The position numbers and the translations under genes were made by a program. Of a DNA stretch of 10,387 nt, positions 1-9,926 are shown piece after piece (position 1 is the first letter of the stretch; the number at the start of each line of letters is the position of its first letter). Where the stretch lies: the NCBI GenBank assembly GCA_016875255.1, contig VGRU01000120.1, positions 1-10,387 on the forward strand, written 5' to 3'. The notes beneath the pieces were generated by a model. The model did not search any database. It was given only the letters and a program-made list of their open reading frames with translations, and was not told the origin of the DNA. Source of the DNA: Deltaproteobacteria bacterium. Its GTDB lineage: Bacteria > Desulfobacterota > BSN033 > UBA1163.

Positions 1-1116
1 AGTCCGAATGGAAAGGATATGGGATTCCTCCGTGGGAAGGGCGTAGGCCTCATCATAAGAGGTGGTATGGATCGACTGGCTCCCCCCAAGGACGGCAGCG
101 AGAGTCTGAATGGCGGCCCGCACGATATTATTCAATGGCTGCTGGGCGGTGAGGGGCAGGGAGGAGGTCTGAATCGCGGTCCGGAACCAGCAACTCCTCT
201 CATTTTTGACATGAAAGGTATCCTTCATGAGACGGGCCCAGATCCGGCGCATCGCCCGAAGTTTTGCGATCTCTTCTAAAAAGTCGATATGGGCGCTCGT
301 AAAAAAGGCGATCCGGGGTCCCCATTGGTCGATCTCCATCCCTCTTGCCAGAAGATGGCGAATATACTCGGATACCAGAGAGAAGGAAAAGGCGATCTCC
401 TGGGCTGCATTGATCCCGGTTTCCCTCATATTGTAAGCATTAATATTGAGGATGTTCCATCGAGGGATATGCTTGATGCAATATTCCATCACATCGCAGG
501 CGATCTTGAGGGTGGGGTCCAGGGGAAAAAAATGCGTCCCGGATTGATAGGTCGGGCCAACGAGCTGGCTGATGGCGCAGTTCATCACTGTTCCTATGAG
601 GCCGGAAGGCTCCACGTTCTGTTTCCTGGCAACGATAAGATACATCGCCATAATGATGGCCGAATAAGGAGGATTCACGATCAACGTCGTGCTCACCTTG
701 TCCAGAGGGATTCCATGAAAAAGGGCCTCCATATCCTCCAAGGTGGCTACGGAGGTTCCGACGAGCCCCACATTTCCCTCTGCCATGGGATGATCGGGAT
801 CGAGACCCAATTTGGTCACCACATCGAAATCGATGTTCAGCCCTGTCATGCCTTTACTCAGAAGCAGGTGAATTCGCTCGTTGCTCTCTTCCGGAGTCCC
901 AAATCCACTCTGCTGTCTTCTGGTCCAGAGCCGGGACCGGTACATCTCCGGATGAATTCCCCGTGTAAAAGGGAAAACACCGGGATCCGGTGAGTCCTGG
1001 AGGGAATCTTCACGCGTATAAAATTCTTTCATCTCGATCCCGGAAAGAGTTCTGAAATGAGGGAGTGTCTCACCCTTCAGATAACGGTCGTACTCAATCT
1101 TATCTGAGGTTTTCAT
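1..1116 (-). CDS. B12-dependent acyl-CoA mutase large subunit, copy A (3' end outside window)
   Basis: This is the catalytic large subunit of a methylmalonyl-CoA-mutase-family enzyme, which performs an adenosylcobalamin radical rearrangement of an acyl-CoA. The first 372 residues are visible and the frame is open to the left edge; about 545 residues are expected from its paralogue at 3415-5052. The ATG at 1116 has a GGAG site 6 nt upstream and gives the same N-terminus as the paralogue (MK..DKI.YDRYLKGE). Family landmarks are FPFTRG (48-53), RLWTRRQQSGFG (62-73), DPDHP (106-110), PRIAFF and QTSSLPLTAQQPLNN. By hand count it differs from the paralogue at about 74 of 372 positions (about 80% identity). 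Usual active-site residues are replaced: Gln69 for Tyr89, Asn94 for Ser114, Met178 for Gln197, Asn229 for His244, Ala314 for His328. Unlike copy B it has His55 where the family has Tyr75, and keeps Tyr228. No B12 domain is expected, because the small subunit is encoded separately at 2820-3215. The substrate is unknown. Confidence 0.9.
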   Translation of the reverse strand, partial: MKTSDKIEYDRYLKGETLPHFRTLSGIEMKEFYTREDSLQDSPDPGVFPFTRGIHPEMYRSRLWTRRQQSGFGTPEESNERIHLLLSKGMTGLNIDFDVVTKLGLDPDHPMAEGNVGLVGTSVATLEDMEALFHGIPLDKVSTTLIVNPPYSAIIMAMYLIVARKQNVEPSGLIGTVMNCAISQLVGPTYQSGTHFFPLDPTLKIACDVMEYCIKHIPRWNILNINAYNMRETGINAAQEIAFSFSLVSEYIRHLLARGMEIDQWGPRIAFFTSAHIDFLEEIAKLRAMRRIWARLMKDTFHVKNERSCWFRTAIQTSSLPLTAQQPLNNIVRAAIQTLAAVLGGSQSIHTTSYDEAYALPTEESHILSIRT

Positions 1117-2819: not shown

Positions 2820-3215
2820 TCATGCACTCATCAGTTCATTCACCTTACGAAGAATCGAATCCCGCATCGTGCCGGGAGTAAAGATTGCGGATACGCCCAT
2901 CTCCTTCAATGCTTTGACATCGTCAGGAGGAACGACTCCGCCGACGATGAGCTTCTTATCCTCCAGACCATTCTGGCGCAGCAGGTCCAGCAACCTCCGG
3001 CAATAAAAGAGGTGCTCCCCGCCTAAAAAACTGCACCCGATCAGGTCTGCGTTCTCCTGGAGGACCGCCTTGACCATCCCTTCAGGGGTATTATAGAGCC
3101 CAAGGTAAATCACCTCGAATCCGGCATCCGCCAGCCATTTCGATACGATCCGGACTCCATTGTCATGGCCATCCAGGCCGATCTTTCCGACGAGAATCCG
3201 TTTCTTCTTTTTCAT
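2820..3215 (-). CDS. Cobalamin-binding small subunit of acyl-CoA mutase
   Basis: A 131-residue stand-alone B12-binding domain, the size of the small subunits of split mutases such as isobutyryl-CoA mutase and 2-hydroxyisobutyryl-CoA mutase (HcmB). The base-off/His-on signature GLDGHDNG is at 13-20, so His17 should be the lower axial cobalt ligand. SFLGGEH (43-49, usually SSLSGAH) and VGGVVPPDD follow in the Rossmann-like fold and contact the nucleotide tail. The ATG at 3215 has a GGGGAGGGG purine run just upstream. It lies downstream of mutase copy B and is the only B12-binding subunit in the window, so it may serve one or both large subunits. The lysine-rich MKKKKR start is unusual but short. 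The conserved Pro of KPGLDGHD is Ile here. Confidence 0.93.
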   Translation of the reverse strand: MKKKKRILVGKIGLDGHDNGVRIVSKWLADAGFEVIYLGLYNTPEGMVKAVLQENADLIGCSFLGGEHLFYCRRLLDLLRQNGLEDKKLIVGGVVPPDDVKALKEMGVSAIFTPGTMRDSILRKVNELMSA

Positions 3216-3414: not shown

Positions 3415-5052
3415 TTATACATAGTGAACCTTAAAATCGTAGGCCTCGCGTAAGGTATCGCTGATCTCCCCCAATGTTGCCTGATCATTCACAGCTTCAA
3501 GGATGGCAGTAAACAAGTTCTCGTCAGGATGACTCCTCACGTGTTGACACAGTTGATCTAATACTCGTTTGACCTGGTCTCCATTTCGGGATTGTTTGTA
3601 GCCTCGGATATATTGAATTCTCTTCTCCTGCATATCTGAGGCTTGACGGAAGATATTGATCTTGACCTCCTCATCCTCTTCCCGTTCCATATTGACCCCG
3701 ATTTGAATCTGTTCCCCCGCCTCCAATTGGCGGGCATACTCATATCGGGCTTCATTGATCTGATTCTCAATCCATTGTGATTTGAAACACTCCAAAAAAC
3801 CGCCTTTTTTCTCGATCACCTCCATCAGGGCTAAGACACCCTCCTCAAGGTCATCGGTCAATTTCTCAATCACATAAGACCCTCCGAGAGGGTCCGCCGT
3901 ACGGCAGACCCCCGTTTCATAGGCGATCACCTGCTGTGTTCGAATGGCGAGCACCTGCGCCTCCTCCGTCGGTAGGGCGTAACCTTCATCATAGGAGGTG
4001 GTGTGGACGGACTGGCTTCCCCCTAAGACAGCCGCCAGCGTCTGAATCGCCGCCCGCACAATGTTATTCAAAGGCTGCTGAGCGCTAAGGGGCAGAGAGG
4101 AGGTCTGAACCGCAATTCGGCACAGGCAACTCTTCGGAGCTTTAGCGCCGAAGGTGTCCTTCATCAGGCGGGCCCAAATGCGCCGCATGGCTCTCAGCTT
4201 GGCGATTTCCTCAAGGAAATCGATATGGACGCTTGCAAAAAAGGCGATGCGGGGAGCAAACAGGTCAATTTCCATCCCCCGTGCTAACAGGGAACGAACG
4301 TACTCTAATGCAAGGGAAAGAACAAAGGCCACTTCCTGCACGGCATTGACCCCTGTCTCCCGGATGTTGCGGGAATTAATATTGATGATGTTCCATCGGG
4401 GCATGTGCTGAACGCAATACTCCATGACATCGGATGCAATCTTGATCGCAGGATCCAGGGGAAAGAAATGCGTTCCGGACTGGTAGGTGGGGCCGACCAA
4501 TTGGGTGATCGCACAGTTCATGATCGTCCCGATCAACCGGGAAGGCTCCACCTTCTGTTTTTGAGCGACCAGAAGATACATCGCCATGATGATCGCCGAA
4601 TAAGGGGGATTGACAATCAGGGTCGTGCTGACTTTATCCAGAGGGATCTGGTGAAAAAGGGTCTCCATGTCTTCGAGGGTGGCCACCGAAGTCCCTACCA
4701 GACCCACATCTCCTTCAGCCAAAGGGTGATCAGGGTCCAGGCCCAATTTAGTAGGAATATCAAGGTCAATATTAAGCCCTGTCATCCCTTTCTTCAAAAG
4801 GAAATGAATGAGGTGGTTGCTCTCCAAAGGAGACCCGAACCCGCTTTGCTGTCTTCTCGTCCATAACCGGCCCCGATACATGTCCCTGTAAACCCCTCTT
4901 GTAAAGGGGAAGTCCCCGGGGTCGGGCGGGTCATGGGGAGAATCCTTTCGGGTATAATACTCCTTCATCTCAATGCCTGAAAGGGTCCTGAAATGAGGAA
5001 GCCTTTCGCCTTTCAGATAGCGGTCGTATTGGATCTTATCCGGGTCTTTCAT
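3415..5052 (-). CDS. B12-dependent acyl-CoA mutase large subunit, copy B
   Basis: A complete 545-residue catalytic subunit of the methylmalonyl-CoA mutase family without its own B12 domain, the size of IcmA/HcmA-type large subunits. The start is ATG 5052: GGAG lies 6 nt upstream and the N-terminus matches copy A. An in-frame GTG at 5064 lies on that ribosome site and is less likely. The TIM-barrel landmarks are in order: FPFTRG (48-53), RLWTRRQQSGFG, GLNIDLDIPT (92-101), GTIMN, FAPRIAFF (265-272, with the conserved Arg268), QTSSLPLSAQQPLNN, SYDEGYALPTEE, DPLGGSY (387-393) and IGVN. Aligned to P. shermanii mutase, Tyr89 is Gln69, Ser114 Asn94, Ala116 Asp96, Gln197 Met178, His244 Asn229 and His328 Ala314. 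Arg207 is lost (Pro188 or Ser192, beside a 4-residue insertion). Tyr75 is kept (Tyr55), but Tyr243 is Arg228. It overlaps the TetR gene by 17 nt. The substrate is unknown; ordinary methylmalonyl-CoA mutase activity is unlikely. Confidence 0.93.
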   Translation of the reverse strand: MKDPDKIQYDRYLKGERLPHFRTLSGIEMKEYYTRKDSPHDPPDPGDFPFTRGVYRDMYRGRLWTRRQQSGFGSPLESNHLIHFLLKKGMTGLNIDLDIPTKLGLDPDHPLAEGDVGLVGTSVATLEDMETLFHQIPLDKVSTTLIVNPPYSAIIMAMYLLVAQKQKVEPSRLIGTIMNCAITQLVGPTYQSGTHFFPLDPAIKIASDVMEYCVQHMPRWNIININSRNIRETGVNAVQEVAFVLSLALEYVRSLLARGMEIDLFAPRIAFFASVHIDFLEEIAKLRAMRRIWARLMKDTFGAKAPKSCLCRIAVQTSSLPLSAQQPLNNIVRAAIQTLAAVLGGSQSVHTTSYDEGYALPTEEAQVLAIRTQQVIAYETGVCRTADPLGGSYVIEKLTDDLEEGVLALMEVIEKKGGFLECFKSQWIENQINEARYEYARQLEAGEQIQIGVNMEREEDEEVKINIFRQASDMQEKRIQYIRGYKQSRNGDQVKRVLDQLCQHVRSHPDENLFTAILEAVNDQATLGEISDTLREAYDFKVHYV

Positions 5053-5653
5053 CTTTTTCTCCACTGATATTTTTCATTTTTTCGCCATAGATCCCCTGAA
5101 ATAAAAAGGTCGTTAACTGCCATGTTAAAGCAGAAGGAGATACAGGACCTTTTGGGTCATACCACTGATAAATCCAGTTCACCAGTGCAAAGAAGGAAAA
5201 GGTCAGAACGTTAGGGTGAATCAACCGGCACCCAGCCTCTTTGGATAAACGAGCGATGACCTTCCGACATATTTCAAAATACTGTCGCTCCTGTTTTTTG
5301 ATGACCGCCAAACGTTTTCCCCTCAAATACTCCCGTTCATGGAGAAGGCACTTGGCCTCATAATAATGCCCAACGTAAAGGTGGATATGGCGTTGAAGAA
5401 TTAAGGCGATCTGCTCTCTCGGAGAAGACAGGGAAGTCAGTTCCTCATCTAAATTGGATAAAGTGAGGTCCATATAGTTTTTTAGGATCTTAAATAAAAG
5501 GTCCTCCTTGTTGTTAAAGTAATGGTAGAGTCCACCCAAACTCATCCCCATGGCTTTCCCAATATCTCTCATCGTCGTGTTTGAGAATCCTTTTCGATGG
5601 ATGAGCCGGGATGAGATTCTGCAGATGTGGTTGAATTTTTCGTCAAAGCTCAT
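5036..5653 (-). CDS. TetR/AcrR-family transcriptional regulator, probably CoA-ester responsive
   Basis: A 205-residue repressor-type protein. The N-terminal helix-turn-helix is clear: residues 26-53 contain TTMRDIGKAMGMSLGGLYHYF and NNKEDLL. The C-terminal ligand domain, with HEREYLRGKR and the tryptophan-rich VNWIYQWYDPKGPVS, resembles the C-terminal domain of TetR proteins that sense acyl-CoA esters. I chose the ATG at 5653. A TTG at 5698 in the same frame would add 15 residues, but it lies immediately upstream of the -10 region and the extension spans a perfect operator-like palindrome (5669-5682), so that stretch is better read as promoter and leader. The gene overlaps mutase copy B by 17 nt and is first in its transcript, so it probably autoregulates and controls the mutase/ligase genes. 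The ligand is inferred to be a CoA intermediate of the pathway. Confidence 0.88.
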   Translation of the reverse strand: MSFDEKFNHICRISSRLIHRKGFSNTTMRDIGKAMGMSLGGLYHYFNNKEDLLFKILKNYMDLTLSNLDEELTSLSSPREQIALILQRHIHLYVGHYYEAKCLLHEREYLRGKRLAVIKKQERQYFEICRKVIARLSKEAGCRLIHPNVLTFSFFALVNWIYQWYDPKGPVSPSALTWQLTTFLFQGIYGEKMKNISGEKDERPG

Positions 5654-5668
5654 TTCAGTAAATCCAAA

Positions 5669-5682
5669 CGAACGTCCGTTCG
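5669..5682. promoter_or_regulatory. Putative TetR operator CGAACG-N2-CGTTCG
   Basis: A perfect 6-bp inverted repeat with a 2-bp spacer, flanked by AA on the left and TT on the right (one unpaired base between). This is the usual form of a TetR-family site. It sits 6 nt downstream of the proposed -10 and would overlap the transcription start, an ideal place for repression. The spacing to the ATG at 5653 also leaves room for a short leader. I found no second copy in the window. Confidence 0.65.
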
Positions 5683-5688
5683 ATTTAT

Positions 5689-5717
5689 CTTTTACCAATA
5701 AAACAACCCTTTGTCAA
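5689..5717 (-). promoter_or_regulatory. Sigma-70-type promoter for tetR-mutase-ligase cluster
   Basis: On the minus strand a perfect TTGACA (5717-5712) is followed after 17 nt by TAAAAG (5694-5689). The -35 box is exact; the -10 is a partial match. The predicted start near 5682 falls in the CGAACG palindrome. Confidence 0.6.
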
Positions 5718-5799: not shown

Positions 5800-7104
5800 T
5801 CAATAAATCTCGAACAGAGACGGAATAAAAGTGATGAGATGTGGAAAGATGAACAGCAGGGCGGCGCAAACGATCATGCCGATCAAAAAGGGATAGACCC
5901 CGCTGTAAATCTCGCCGAAGGGCACCTTGGTGATATTTCTGACCACAAAGACATTGACGGCCACAGGAGGAATCACGACCCCGATCATCACAAAAATATG
6001 GAGGATGACGCCAAACCATATGGGATCGTAGCCCAACTTGATGACGATGGGGAAAAAGATCGGAGTGGCCAGAACCATAAAGGCGAGGTCATCGATGAAA
6101 GAGCCGCCGATCTCATAAATCAGCAGAATGAAAATCATGATCAGGAAAGGCGGATAAGGGAGTTGTCCGACCCAATCGGCAGCCAGGATGGGGATCTTCG
6201 TCACCACAAGAAAATGCCCCAGGATGGTGGAGCCTGCAATCAGCATGAGGACCATACATGCGGTTCGTAAAGACTCTGCTACGGACTTAACGAATCCATC
6301 GAAATTGATGTCCCTTTTGAGAACCGATAAAAGGAGAACGGCGAATGTCCCTGCGCTCCCTGCTTCCGTGGGTGTAAAGAACCCTTTGGCCATCCCTCCG
6401 GTCACAATGATGAAGATCAGGATGACCCATATCACCTCTTTGAGTGACCGCCATCTCTCCTTCCATGTCGATTTTTCACCCTTGGGGCCCAAAGAAGGGT
6501 CGATCTTGCACCATCCATAGATGATGAAAATAAACAATGAGGTAATAATCAGCCCTGGAACAATCGCAGCCAGAAATAACTTACCAATGGATGTTTCAGT
6601 AATCATTCCAAAGACAATAAGGGTGACGCTCGGCGGAATGAGACTGCCAAGAGTGCCTGAAACAGCGATGATCCCTGTGGAGAGTTTCTTCTTATAATGG
6701 TATCGATCCATCTCGGGATAAGCCACACTGCCAAAGGTCGCTGCCGTGGCAATGGCTGATCCTGTCACCGTTCCGAAGGCGGCCGCTCCACCCACCGTTG
6801 CCATCGCCTGTCCACCGGGGATATGTCCGATAAATTTGAAGGACGCATCATACAATCTCTTTGCAATCCCGGCATTAAAAGCAATCTGCCCCATGAGGAC
6901 AAAGAGGGGAATCACGGTAAATCCATAATTGGCAAAGACATCGAAGATATCTTTGGCCAAAAGATTTAGCCCGGCCTTAAAGGAAACAATATAGCTGAAC
7001 CCAAGAAACCCAATGATGGCCATGGCAAATCCCAGTTCGATCCCGGTGAGGAATAAGGCAAGCACGGCAGCCAGGCCTAAAATCCCAATCGTCGTCTCAC
7101 TCAT
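5800..7104 (-). CDS. dctM: TRAP transporter large permease, DctM family
   Basis: A 434-residue inner-membrane protein, the usual size for DctM, almost entirely hydrophobic with about 11-12 predicted transmembrane segments. DctM is the ion-coupled transport subunit that works with DctQ and the periplasmic DctP to take up organic anions. Family features: an N-terminal ATIGILG-like helix pair, FVLMGQIAFNAGI (about 68-80), the loop GGAAAFGTVTGSAIATAATFG (about 105-125), GTLGSLIPPS (150-159), FFTPTEAGSAG (about 246-256), and a second-half repeat with GGSFIDDLAFMVLATPIFFP and GVVIPPVAVNVFV. The ATG at 7104 has GGAGGG upstream and overlaps the dctQ stop by 8 nt, indicating translational coupling. 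The stop at 5800 is followed by a GC-rich hairpin. The substrate cannot be read from this subunit. Confidence 0.95.
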   Translation of the reverse strand: MSETTIGILGLAAVLALFLTGIELGFAMAIIGFLGFSYIVSFKAGLNLLAKDIFDVFANYGFTVIPLFVLMGQIAFNAGIAKRLYDASFKFIGHIPGGQAMATVGGAAAFGTVTGSAIATAATFGSVAYPEMDRYHYKKKLSTGIIAVSGTLGSLIPPSVTLIVFGMITETSIGKLFLAAIVPGLIITSLFIFIIYGWCKIDPSLGPKGEKSTWKERWRSLKEVIWVILIFIIVTGGMAKGFFTPTEAGSAGTFAVLLLSVLKRDINFDGFVKSVAESLRTACMVLMLIAGSTILGHFLVVTKIPILAADWVGQLPYPPFLIMIFILLIYEIGGSFIDDLAFMVLATPIFFPIVIKLGYDPIWFGVILHIFVMIGVVIPPVAVNVFVVRNITKVPFGEIYSGVYPFLIGMIVCAALLFIFPHLITFIPSLFEIY

Positions 7105-7579
7105 GTTTCCCTCCGGAGATCTTCAAGATATCACACAGAAGCACAAGGCACTGAACAAAACTGCAAATCCCCAACGCGTAAGCAACCGGATAGAAAGGCA
7201 TCATCAGAGTGGGCGAGACTTCCCCTGCTTTCTTCAGATCCAATCCATACTTTATCAATTCTATCCCGAGAATGAAAAAAAGCCCTATCCCCAGGCATCT
7301 CGTCAATAGACTAAAAACGTTTCTCGTTTTTTCAGAGAATCTCATCACAAGAAAATCCGTATAGACATGCCCCTTCATCCACGAGGTATAGGGAAGAGAA
7401 AATCCGATGACGATCGCTCCTGAAAAGGCGACGATCTCAAAGGTTCCAACGATGGGTTTTCTAAAGGACCTTAAGATAATATCAGCAACCGTCAAAAACA
7501 TGATGAACGAAAGGCTGACTCCTCCGATAAAATTAATGCCTCGGGTGAGCTTCCAGACCTTATTTAGAAACCATCCCAT
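7097..7579 (-). CDS. dctQ: TRAP transporter small permease, DctQ family
   Basis: A 160-residue inner-membrane protein with four hydrophobic segments (about 14-35, 45-65, 87-108, 127-149), the DctQ topology. Family residues are present: the D33..R37...P42..G45..E48 pattern between segments 1 and 2, and GHVYTD (70-75) after segment 2. The protein is the small membrane partner of DctM. The ATG at 7579 has AAAGGAG 6 nt upstream. The gap to dctP is about 100 nt and contains a stem-loop terminator (7639-7669), so dctQ-dctM is probably made at a lower level than dctP. It overlaps dctM by 8 nt. Confidence 0.93.
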   Translation of the reverse strand: MGWFLNKVWKLTRGINFIGGVSLSFIMFLTVADIILRSFRKPIVGTFEIVAFSGAIVIGFSLPYTSWMKGHVYTDFLVMRFSEKTRNVFSLLTRCLGIGLFFILGIELIKYGLDLKKAGEVSPTLMMPFYPVAYALGICSFVQCLVLLCDILKISGGKHE

Positions 7580-7682: not shown

Positions 7683-8699
7683 CTATTTCTGATATTTATA
7701 GATGGATTCGAGATAGAATCTCAGCACTTCATCTCCAGGAAGCCCCTTGTCTCTCATGCTCTTTACGTATTCATCATAAAGGGGTTTGAGCGTCTTTTCC
7801 CATTTCCGGTTCTCATCCACCGAAAGGGTGATGATCTTGTTGCCCCTTTGGACGGTGAAATCCTTTCCTGCCTTATCAATCTCATCCCAGCCTTTTCCAT
7901 GTTTATCAATCCATTCGGCGTTGATCTGTTCAATGATTTTCTGGTCACCTGGAGGAATGGAATCCCACTTAGCCTTATTCATGGCGATGAAGAAGGCAGA
8001 GCTGTAATACATTCCGGGCGCTTCCGTGGTAAATTTTACGACCTCGCCCCATTTCCATGCCTGAAGAGCTTCATAGGGTGCAATCGAACCTTCGACGACG
8101 CCTCTGCTCAAAGCCTCATAGGTTTCACCCATAGCCATCGCTACAGGAGCTCCTCCGAGGAGGGTGACAATCTTTGTGACCGCACCAAAGGCGCGAACTT
8201 TCATTCCTTTCATATCCTCAAGTTTTTCAACAGCTTTTTTAGTATGGAGAAGTCCGGGCCCATGGGCATGCATATACATCATCTTCACATCATCAAATTC
8301 CTTTGGCCTAAATTTGGCGACGTAATCATTGATCGTTTTCGTAATGGCCCACCCACTTTTGTGGCCAAGAGGAAGTTCGACTACCTCGGTCAGAGGAAAT
8401 CTTCCTCGCGTGTAGCCACAGACGGACATGCCGACATCCGAAAGCCCTTTTACAACTCCGTCATAGACTGCGGGGGCAGGCGTGAGGGTGCCGCCATAGT
8501 GCATCGTTACGACCACCCTGCCATTGGTCCTCTTCTCAATCTCCTTTCCCCATTCTGCGGCCAGCACGCTATGCTTATGAGGGGCAGGGAAAAAGATGGA
8601 GTAGCTGAGTTTGATCTGTGCAGAAGCAGGAGAAATGAAAAGCATCCATCCAAAAATTGAAACACATAATACTAAAGAAATAATCTTAAAACGTCCCAT
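7683..8699 (-). CDS. dctP: TRAP transporter periplasmic solute-binding protein, DctP family
   Basis: A 338-residue exported binding protein. Residues 1-27 form a signal peptide: basic start MGRFK, hydrophobic core, cleavage after PASA before Gln28. The mature protein shows DctP features: LAAEWGKEIEKRTNGRV near the start, the central MKGMKVRAFG (163-172), whose Arg169 corresponds to the arginine that clamps the substrate carboxylate in most DctP proteins, then GGAPVAMAMGETYEALSRG (182-200) and VVEGSIAPYEAL. It should bind a carboxylate ligand in the periplasm and pass it to DctQM. The ATG at 8699 has AAAGGAGG 5 nt upstream. It is the first gene of the TRAP operon, behind a leader of about 335 nt. 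Being next to a CoA ligase/mutase cluster suggests it imports the acid that the ligase activates, but the two operons have separate promoters. Confidence 0.95.
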   Translation of the reverse strand: MGRFKIISLVLCVSIFGWMLFISPASAQIKLSYSIFFPAPHKHSVLAAEWGKEIEKRTNGRVVVTMHYGGTLTPAPAVYDGVVKGLSDVGMSVCGYTRGRFPLTEVVELPLGHKSGWAITKTINDYVAKFRPKEFDDVKMMYMHAHGPGLLHTKKAVEKLEDMKGMKVRAFGAVTKIVTLLGGAPVAMAMGETYEALSRGVVEGSIAPYEALQAWKWGEVVKFTTEAPGMYYSSAFFIAMNKAKWDSIPPGDQKIIEQINAEWIDKHGKGWDEIDKAGKDFTVQRGNKIITLSVDENRKWEKTLKPLYDEYVKSMRDKGLPGDEVLRFYLESIYKYQK

Positions 8700-9266: not shown

Positions 9267-9926
9267 ATGTATTACGATCCGGAAAAAAATGACCACGGCC
9301 TTCCCCACAACCCCTTTAAATCCTGCGTGGTGCCTCGCCCCATTGGTTGGATCTCAACGGTCAGCCCCGGAGGGATACACAACCTTGCGCCTTACAGCCA
9401 GTTCCAGAACCTGACCTTCGATCCTCCCTACGTGATGTTTGCGGCCAACCAGAACACCCGGGGCAACCGTAAGGATTCGGTGGTCAACGCCGAGCAAGCC
9501 GGTGAATTCGTCTATAACATGGCAACCTACGACCTGCGCGAGGCAGTCAACCGTTCAGCCGCAGAAGTGGAGCCGGAGGTGGATGAATTTGAACTTGCCG
9601 GCCTGACCAAGGCGCCATCGGTCCGGGTAAAACCCTGTCGGGTTGCGGAGTCCCCGATTCAATTCGAGTGCCGCTACTACGGGACGCTGCGGTTGCCTGG
9701 CAATGGACCCATGGGCACCGTGGATGTGATCATTGGCCGGGTGGTTCTGATCCACATTAAAGACGACATCATTGCTTCGGACGGCCGGATTGATCTCCTG
9801 CGGATCCGCCCCTTAGCCCGGCTCGGTTACTATGACTATACAAGTGTGGAGTCTATCTTCGAAATGGTGATTCCTGACGCCAATGAAGCTCTGCTCGCAG
9901 GTCTTGAGGGTAAAAAGGAGAAGTGA
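9267..9926 (+). CDS. Flavin reductase-like protein (FMN-binding split-barrel, DIM6/NTAB type)
   Basis: A 219-residue cytoplasmic protein of the flavin-reductase-like split-barrel family, full length for the group. The characteristic FMN-binding region is near the N-terminus: PRPIGWIST (23-31) then NLAPYSQF (39-46), followed by the conserved RKDSVVNAEQAGEFVYN stretch (68-84) and a central SPIQFECRYY segment. Members bind FMN and reduce free flavin or act as small flavoproteins; the partner here is not evident. The ATG at 9267 has CAGGGAGAAAG upstream. It is transcribed alone, divergently from dctPQM, and ends 40 nt before a convergent gene. It looks richer in G+C than the neighbouring genes and uses more GCC/CGG-type codons, so it may have a different history. 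A role in the mutase pathway is not supported by position alone. Confidence 0.9.
   Translation: MYYDPEKNDHGLPHNPFKSCVVPRPIGWISTVSPGGIHNLAPYSQFQNLTFDPPYVMFAANQNTRGNRKDSVVNAEQAGEFVYNMATYDLREAVNRSAAEVEPEVDEFELAGLTKAPSVRVKPCRVAESPIQFECRYYGTLRLPGNGPMGTVDVIIGRVVLIHIKDDIIASDGRIDLLRIRPLARLGYYDYTSVESIFEMVIPDANEALLAGLEGKKEK

Follow-up and report, generated by a model that had tools for sequence, protein, structure and literature searches.

To our knowledge, few acyl-CoA mutase reactions are known, and a mutase that has exchanged most of its diagnostic active-site residues raises the question of whether it is decaying or belongs to a group with a substrate of its own. The case considered here is a 10,387-nucleotide stretch of a Deltaproteobacteria bacterium genome (contig VGRU01000120.1; hereafter the window), which encodes two mutase large subunits, copies A and B. 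Sequence comparisons confirmed that these represent a real, conserved, and previously uncharacterised subfamily, of a known kind of enzyme but with its pocket remodelled, and that neither copy nests with methylmalonyl-CoA mutase (MCM), 2-hydroxyisobutyryl-CoA mutase (HCM), or a pivalyl-CoA mutase (PCM) candidate. No description of the subfamily, its residues, or its gene set was found in search listings of open-licence PMC papers.

The cassette is transcribed in the order DctP, DctQ, DctM, TetR, mutase B, B12 subunit, PaaK-like ligase, and mutase A (Table 1). On the plus strand, frame 1 across the copy B region (3415-5052) is interrupted by many stops. Copy B has the full-length large-subunit domain and the fold of the AdoCbl acyl-CoA mutase family (PF01642), and a B12-binding partner with the family's DxHxxG motif (solved relatives 2yxb and 4r3u_C) is encoded beside it at 2820-3215. 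Structure searches with the copy B model (Foldseek, VIA-align) returned mutases already known, together with remote B12 enzymes and common barrels. Copy A continues past the window start; a full-length counterpart of 545 aa lies in locus L003 (9144-10781). Genes for MeaB chaperone, MeaH, CoA-transferase, or acyl-CoA dehydrogenase were not found within the window. A flavin-reductase-like gene (9267-9926) is divergent from the cassette; such a gene also adjoins the TRAP genes in L002, and in L003 it comes after an AMP-ligase-like gene near the TRAP genes.

Table 1. Genes of the window and pocket codons of the two mutase copies.
Feature	Position	Strand	Basis and remarks
N-terminal 372 aa of mutase large subunit copy A, which runs on past window start	1..1116	minus	profile/domain searches; alignment with copy B
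Codon Tyr228 of copy A (Arg in copy B)	433..435	minus	alignment
PaaK-like acyl-CoA ligase, 447 aa	1316..2659	minus	domain/profile searches
B12-binding small subunit, 131 aa	2820..3215	minus	motif GLDGHDNG (DxHxxG); TIGR00640 132 bits, cut-off 57
Mutase large subunit copy B, 545 aa	3415..5052	minus	PF01642 / TIGR00641; ATG 5052, stop ends 3415
Codons Arg228 (MCM Tyr243) and Asn229 (MCM His244)	4366..4371	minus	alignment
Residues 187-191 (GPTYQ), containing the 4-residue insertion of the Arg207 loop	4480..4494	minus	alignment
Codon Asp96 (MCM Ala116, HCM Asp117)	4765..4767	minus	alignment
Codon Gln69 (MCM Tyr89, HCM Ile90)	4846..4848	minus	alignment
TetR-family regulator	5036..5698	minus	TetR_N, TetR_C_24; 17-base overlap with start of copy B
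TRAP transporter large permease DctM	5800..7104	minus	profile/domain searches
TRAP transporter small permease DctQ	7097..7579	minus	domain search
TRAP solute-binding protein DctP	7683..8699	minus	nearest solved 4n6d, 7nr2, 7nsw, 7nrr, 4pgn, 4nap, 5i5p

In MCM, Tyr89 and Arg207 recognise the methylmalonyl group and set specificity, His244 contacts the thioester carbonyl, and much activity is lost without His244. Copy B was mapped onto P. shermanii MCM (1req numbering) by pairwise phmmer and MAFFT. Both programs reproduced, at each named residue, the replacements that the original prediction had read from a hand alignment: Tyr89 by Q69, Ser114 by N94, Gln197 by M178, His244 by N229, and His328 by A314. 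Their agreement rules out hand misalignment as the source, and no alignment restored the missing His or Arg, whose return had been named beforehand as counter-evidence. The proposed loss of Arg207 beside an insertion was also found, with Ser192 as its partner and four extra residues within 187-191, and phmmer placed the expected additional residue a few positions past Asn148. The predicted retention of Arg283 (R268) and Gln330 (Q316) holds in the alignments, and Asn168 is kept as N148. Two further positions concern the pocket: D96 corresponds to Ala116 of MCM and Asp117 of HCM (4r3u numbering, with an offset of 11 that also places Ile90 correctly), and R228, directly before N229, corresponds to Tyr243. 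We take Asp117 and Ile90 of HCM to set specificity for a hydroxylated substrate, and Tyr243 to line the substrate pocket in MCM structures. Equivalents of Glu247, Gln330, and Glu370, which presumably have cofactor-side roles, are kept in both A and B. The structure of the H244A variant of MCM (1e1c) is among the structure-search matches. In one HCM, every tried change of first-shell residues abolished activity, according to PMC11599936. Taken together, the cost of losing His244 in MCM and this sensitivity imply that in the subfamily the task either falls to other residues or is solved by different chemistry; with both His244 and His328 gone, catalysis may be weak or different.

These replacements are conserved among close relatives. 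Two homolog searches each gave ~8000 matches below 1e-60, of which the best 120 per search were retained; the resulting 227 sequences (120 from one search and 107 new from the second) are close relatives by construction. Among these listed homologs, N94, M178, N229, A314, and Q316 occur in 227/227 and Q69 in 221, the other six being gapped there; position 96 is Asp in 203 and Asn in 24. None of 34 contrast mutases (solved MCM and HCM chains, Xanthobacter plasmid mutases, plasmid or genome relatives, and same-genome paralogs; the fragment L037 was dropped before counting) has Q69, M178, A314, or the insertion, while N229 appears in one and N94 in five. His244 is retained in 33 and His328 in 27 of the 34. 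Three (4r3u, Xaut_5021, and L013) have Asp at place 117, in each case together with Ile in place of Tyr89, which is the residue pair of HCM; L058 is MCM-like in its residues. A second contrast set of 30 mutases, fetched from a longer match list covering 85 genomes of one other class, is uniform (30/30) in Tyr/Phe89, Ser114, Ala116, Gln197, Tyr243, His244, Arg283, His328, and Gln330, and Q69, N94, M178, N229, A314, and the insertion occur in 0/30.

Phylogenetic analysis placed the subfamily apart from its relatives. Maximum likelihood (ML) trees of 53 and 58 sequences were built from homologs thinned at 78% identity, with proteins of ≤520 aa excluded; L013, L030, and L058 are in no tree and were judged by residues alone. 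The subfamily (27 sequences in each ML tree) formed one clade with bootstrap 100 in both. Five long-branch mutases (L024, L026, L027, L028, and L036) were absent from the 53-sequence tree and from a FastTree analysis, and their inclusion in the 58-sequence tree left the clade unchanged. FastTree (257 sequences, 231 from the subfamily) placed no outsider within it, at a local support of 0.602 for the node after re-rooting. Nodes outside the subfamily were weakly supported in the 58-sequence tree (61-84), and the nearest outgroups, L036 and Xaut_5043, joined at supports of only 61 and 80. The proposed status of a separate subfamily is supported within the range of these trees, which cover MCM, HCM, and the PCM candidate: neither copy nests in any of these groups. 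Between the window and L003, dN/dS (Nei-Gojobori) was ~0.07 for both copies (B, 0.093/1.41; A, 0.035/0.506). Conservation and low dN/dS rule out decay of the mutase, and the earlier claim that the replacements are selected is sustained by the clade with bootstrap 100, this ratio, and more than 200 conserved members.

At 15 loci, which come from 14 genomes, the neighbours of subfamily mutases were labelled by BLAST against reference genes; seven of the loci were rechecked by tblastn. A Pfam check of ten neighbour proteins (three loci and L073) agreed with nine labels; the tenth is a purine enzyme outside the cassette. A DxHxxG-type small subunit adjoins the mutase in 15/15 loci, and MeaB adjoins it in L073 and L086. 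Both observations, together with the strong conservation and low dN/dS of the rest of the protein, argue against a protein that has lost mutase activity and serves some non-radical role, a reading for which the loss of two active-site histidines speaks but which we consider very improbable. A ligase is present in the cluster in 11/15 loci (five PaaK-like and six of the ordinary AMP-binding type) and was not seen in L001 (which ends in the small subunit), L073, L096, or L099. TetR genes occur in 11/15 loci (in L097 only as a fragment at the contig end) and TRAP transporter parts in 8/15. An MmgE/PrpD protein, remotely similar to cis-aconitate decarboxylase (94 bits) and IDS-epimerase (89 bits), is encoded in six loci (L072, L074, L075, L086, L087, and L098), always with a ligase of the AMP-binding type; in the 15-locus set none was labelled where the ligase is PaaK-like only. 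In L098 both genes lie on the other strand, and L072 has an additional PaaK-like gene in a divergent unit. In L003, copy A is followed (at 12018-14279) by one gene that is ferredoxin-like and one that is aldehyde:ferredoxin oxidoreductase-like, both named by eye, and genes similar to this pair lie near copy A in G004:C22.

Relatives of the window mutases were detected in 4/23 genomes of one class. The wider subfamily is present in 6/395 genomes of the phylum, 4/46 of a second class, and 6/85 and 1/10 of others, in genome sets that overlap. Contigs of the close relatives (L001-L005) belong to proteobacterial, Deltaproteobacteria, or Thermodesulfobacteriota MAGs.

Known mutase systems resemble the window in part. 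MCM (P. shermanii and human) shares with copy B its fold and Arg283, Gln330, Glu247, and Glu370, but the two are only 35-37% identical, and Tyr89, Gln197, Arg207, His244, and His328 are replaced in copy B. We take Xaut_5043/5044, of the Xaut_5040-5045 set, to be a PCM candidate. Its cassette likewise combines TetR, a small subunit, and a PaaK-like ligase, and has a MeaB-type and a PaaD-like gene besides; Xaut_5043 is 32.8% identical to copy B, keeps His244, His328, and Gln197, and has neither D96 nor the insertion. The 2-hydroxyisobutyrate set Xaut_5018-5021 comprises a small subunit, a PaaK-like ligase, a MeaB-type GTPase, and a large subunit, and Xaut_5019 is 33.5% identical to the window ligase. 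Because its gene order resembles these two cassettes, the window is read as a unit for uptake, activation, and rearrangement.

HcmAB (4r3u) shows further likenesses: split large and small subunits, Asp117 in the place of D96, and a PaaK-like ligase in the operon. It is also the best solved sequence match of copy B (415 bits vs 361 bits for human MCM). The subfamily could on these grounds be a form of HCM, possibly of the RCM type, which forms (R)-3-hydroxybutyryl-CoA, with a cassette that degrades 2-hydroxyisobutyrate or a close short-chain relative; PMC7176365 mentions an RcmAB-like mutase from a deltaproteobacterium and describes hcl as occurring with hcmAB or rcmAB and meaH. Such an identity is distinctly unlikely, since copy B has Q, M, N, and A where HCM has Ile90, Gln198, His245, and His330, HCM lies neither within nor next to the subfamily in the 58-sequence tree (outside supports weak, 61-84), and MCM and HCM tie as structural matches of the copy B model. 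HCM and copy B are 38.6% identical, and the four-residue insertion sets copy B further apart. The HCM operon includes hcl-meaH, whereas the window is without MeaH and its ligase is nearer to PaaK (4r1l 283 bits, 2y4o 279, 2y27 276) than to HCL (6hdw, 164 bits). A search for HCM or RCM candidates with an HCM-type query matched 79 of the 85 genomes of the other class; no candidate was picked out from the 30 fetched loci, because all have Tyr/Phe at 89 and Ala at 116. An Amycolatopsis mutase (L013, 10001-11560) has the HCM pair of Ile at 89 and Asp at the 117 place and, judged by these residues, is likely a relative of HCM.

Copy A is 80% identical to copy B over 372 aa and carries all the listed replacements, as had been claimed; overlooked was a difference at position 228, which is Tyr in A and Arg in B. 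Among the 227 listed homologs this position is Arg in 79 and Tyr in 148. Arg228 is found in the B clade (100), in P0098 next to A+B, and, far from these, in a clade formed by G047, G370, and P0120 (100). As the A+B+P0098 and G047/G370/P0120 clades are separate, with Tyr228 sequences between them, Arg228 appears to have been gained at least twice; within A+B+P0098, Arg228 may have been gained a second time or copy A may have reverted. A single ancient split into A-type and B-type enzymes is ruled out by the separation of the two clades (both 100). An R-type and a Y-type gene belong to the same operon in the window, in L003, in G047, and in G370, and lie on different contigs in G002 and G423. 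In G001 an R-type but no Y-type gene was found, on a contig that ends in mutS. The R-type gene adjoins a TetR gene in the window, L001, L002, L074, L075, and L087; beside the R-type mutase of L003, no TetR gene was found.

The pairing allows for A and B forming one heterodimeric enzyme with a single catalytic large subunit, like alpha/beta MCM. A single small-subunit gene for both large subunits, as seen in L003 and in the window (where copy A is truncated and a second small-subunit gene may lie beyond the edge), would fit such an arrangement, as would the co-occurrence of Y-type genes in 5/6 genomes with R-type (G002, G003, G047, G370, and G423). The arrangement is nonetheless unlikely: each copy has a separate small subunit in G047 and G370, as do the two copies of G423, which are found on different contigs, and the Glu247, Gln330, and Glu370 equivalents are intact in both A and B. 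Two enzymes, A (Tyr228) and B (Arg228), would probably act on two related esters or isomers.

Residue 228 also bears on the proposal that the substrate probably has no free carboxylate at the usual place. This proposal is not supported in the form given: Arg207 is indeed lost, but B has Arg228, a polar D/N96 is kept, and 47/122 members of a wider set have Arg195, within the loop that takes the place of the Arg207 stretch. Since Arg228 has arisen at least twice, the absence of a free carboxylate is an unsafe assumption for B. The substrate might then be a CoA ester with a second carboxylate, such as an aryl- or alkylsuccinyl-CoA or a substituted malonyl-CoA, with Arg228 in B or Arg195 in relatives taking over from Arg207. 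A precedent is IaaGH, the benzylmalonyl-CoA (arylsuccinyl-CoA) mutase of indoleacetate degradation, whose pathway includes the CoA ligase IaaB, as given in PMC8360864; by this description it resembles the window system in linking an acyl-CoA mutase, in its case one for an aromatic ester, to a CoA ligase. We give a second carboxylate a small chance, in view of its R-type support (79/227 listed homologs, at least two origins) set against Tyr228 in copy A and 148/227, His195 in both A and B, and a window without CoA-transferase and acyl-CoA dehydrogenase genes. The IaaGH pathway also has IaaL and IaaF, neither with a counterpart in the window.

We consider it likely, on sequence evidence, that A and B are AdoCbl acyl-CoA mutase large subunits of a distinct subfamily, in a cassette for uptake, CoA activation, and rearrangement of a branched acid. 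The comparisons establish gene identity, residues, conservation, and gene order; activity, direction, substrate class, and the division of labour between A and B are given here as we infer them. A carboxylic acid would be imported by the TRAP system and converted to its CoA ester by the PaaK-like ligase. The mutase would then use the usual radical mechanism to shift the C(O)SCoA group onto the adjacent carbon, so that a branched or tertiary acyl-CoA, which is unusable for beta-oxidation, becomes a linear one. Because the pocket is remodelled (Q69, N94, D96, M178, N229, A314, and a longer 187-191 loop), methylmalonyl-CoA would not be the substrate, and we infer that the subfamily acts on a different CoA ester. 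That ester is probably bulkier and carries a polar, hydroxyl-like group close to D96, perhaps together with an aromatic ring; an acid that is branched, and perhaps also aromatic or hydroxylated, appears to be the best reading.

Weak signs of an aromatic substrate come from the similarity of DctP, from a ligase that scores higher with PaaK than with HCL, and from BamA in host genomes. Several of the nearest solved chains of DctP (Table 1) are, we assume, binders of aromatic or indole acids. BamA, of the benzoyl-CoA pathway, scored over the cut-off in 6/9 genomes (G002, G003, G004, G005, G187, and G195), was below it in G047 and G370, and is split in G001. As a marker of aromatic degradation in subfamily hosts it is not discriminating: G005 has BamA but no subfamily member that passes the cut used, and in G047 and G370 BamA is below the cut-off. 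In G001:C325 (16057-17149) the BamA-like gene is in pieces, one with an internal TAA, perhaps through assembly error. TRAP ligands include indole acids (PMC5812351), and the R. palustris protein TarP binds acids of the coumarate type (PMC3610893); neither paper is tied to DctP's nearest chains.

Going further, we tentatively suggest, as a possibility with the odds against it, a large subfamily performing a radical 1,2-shift without His244 and His328, by way of Asn229 and D/N96, in which paired Tyr228/Arg228 isoenzymes evolved more than once and which, in the bacteria of the window, would provide an anaerobic route for branched aromatic or hydroxy acids, e.g. from 2-aryl-branched acids to linear ones open to beta-oxidation. 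With His244 kept in 33/34 and 30/30 comparison mutases, a conserved group without it, in a defined importer-ligase-mutase cassette, offers a way to a new skeletal rearrangement. The subfamily can inform how far the pocket may change while radical catalysis stays, and the paired R/Y copies are a natural test of one pocket residue (228). The cassette also points to unrecognised use of branched acids by uncultured anaerobic relatives of the Desulfobacterota.

Other mutases with unusual pockets were encountered. A second odd group occurs in G001-G004 (L024 1444-3072, L026 1474-3102, L027 1474-3132, and L028 1474-3102), in the gene order GntR-like gene, small subunit, large subunit, and 3-hydroxyacyl-CoA dehydrogenase-like protein (named by eye). 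Its large subunit keeps His244, but Arg283 and Gln330 are both replaced by Gly, and His328 by Ile/Leu. L030, from G005, is partly similar (Asn114, Ile328, and Gly330) and keeps Arg283. Plasmid mutases of Diaphorobacter and Marinobacter (L060 4857-6482 and L061 4929-6584) lie beside enoyl-CoA hydratase and CoA-transferase genes; in both, Tyr243 is replaced by Ala, His328 by Gly, and Gln330 by Val.
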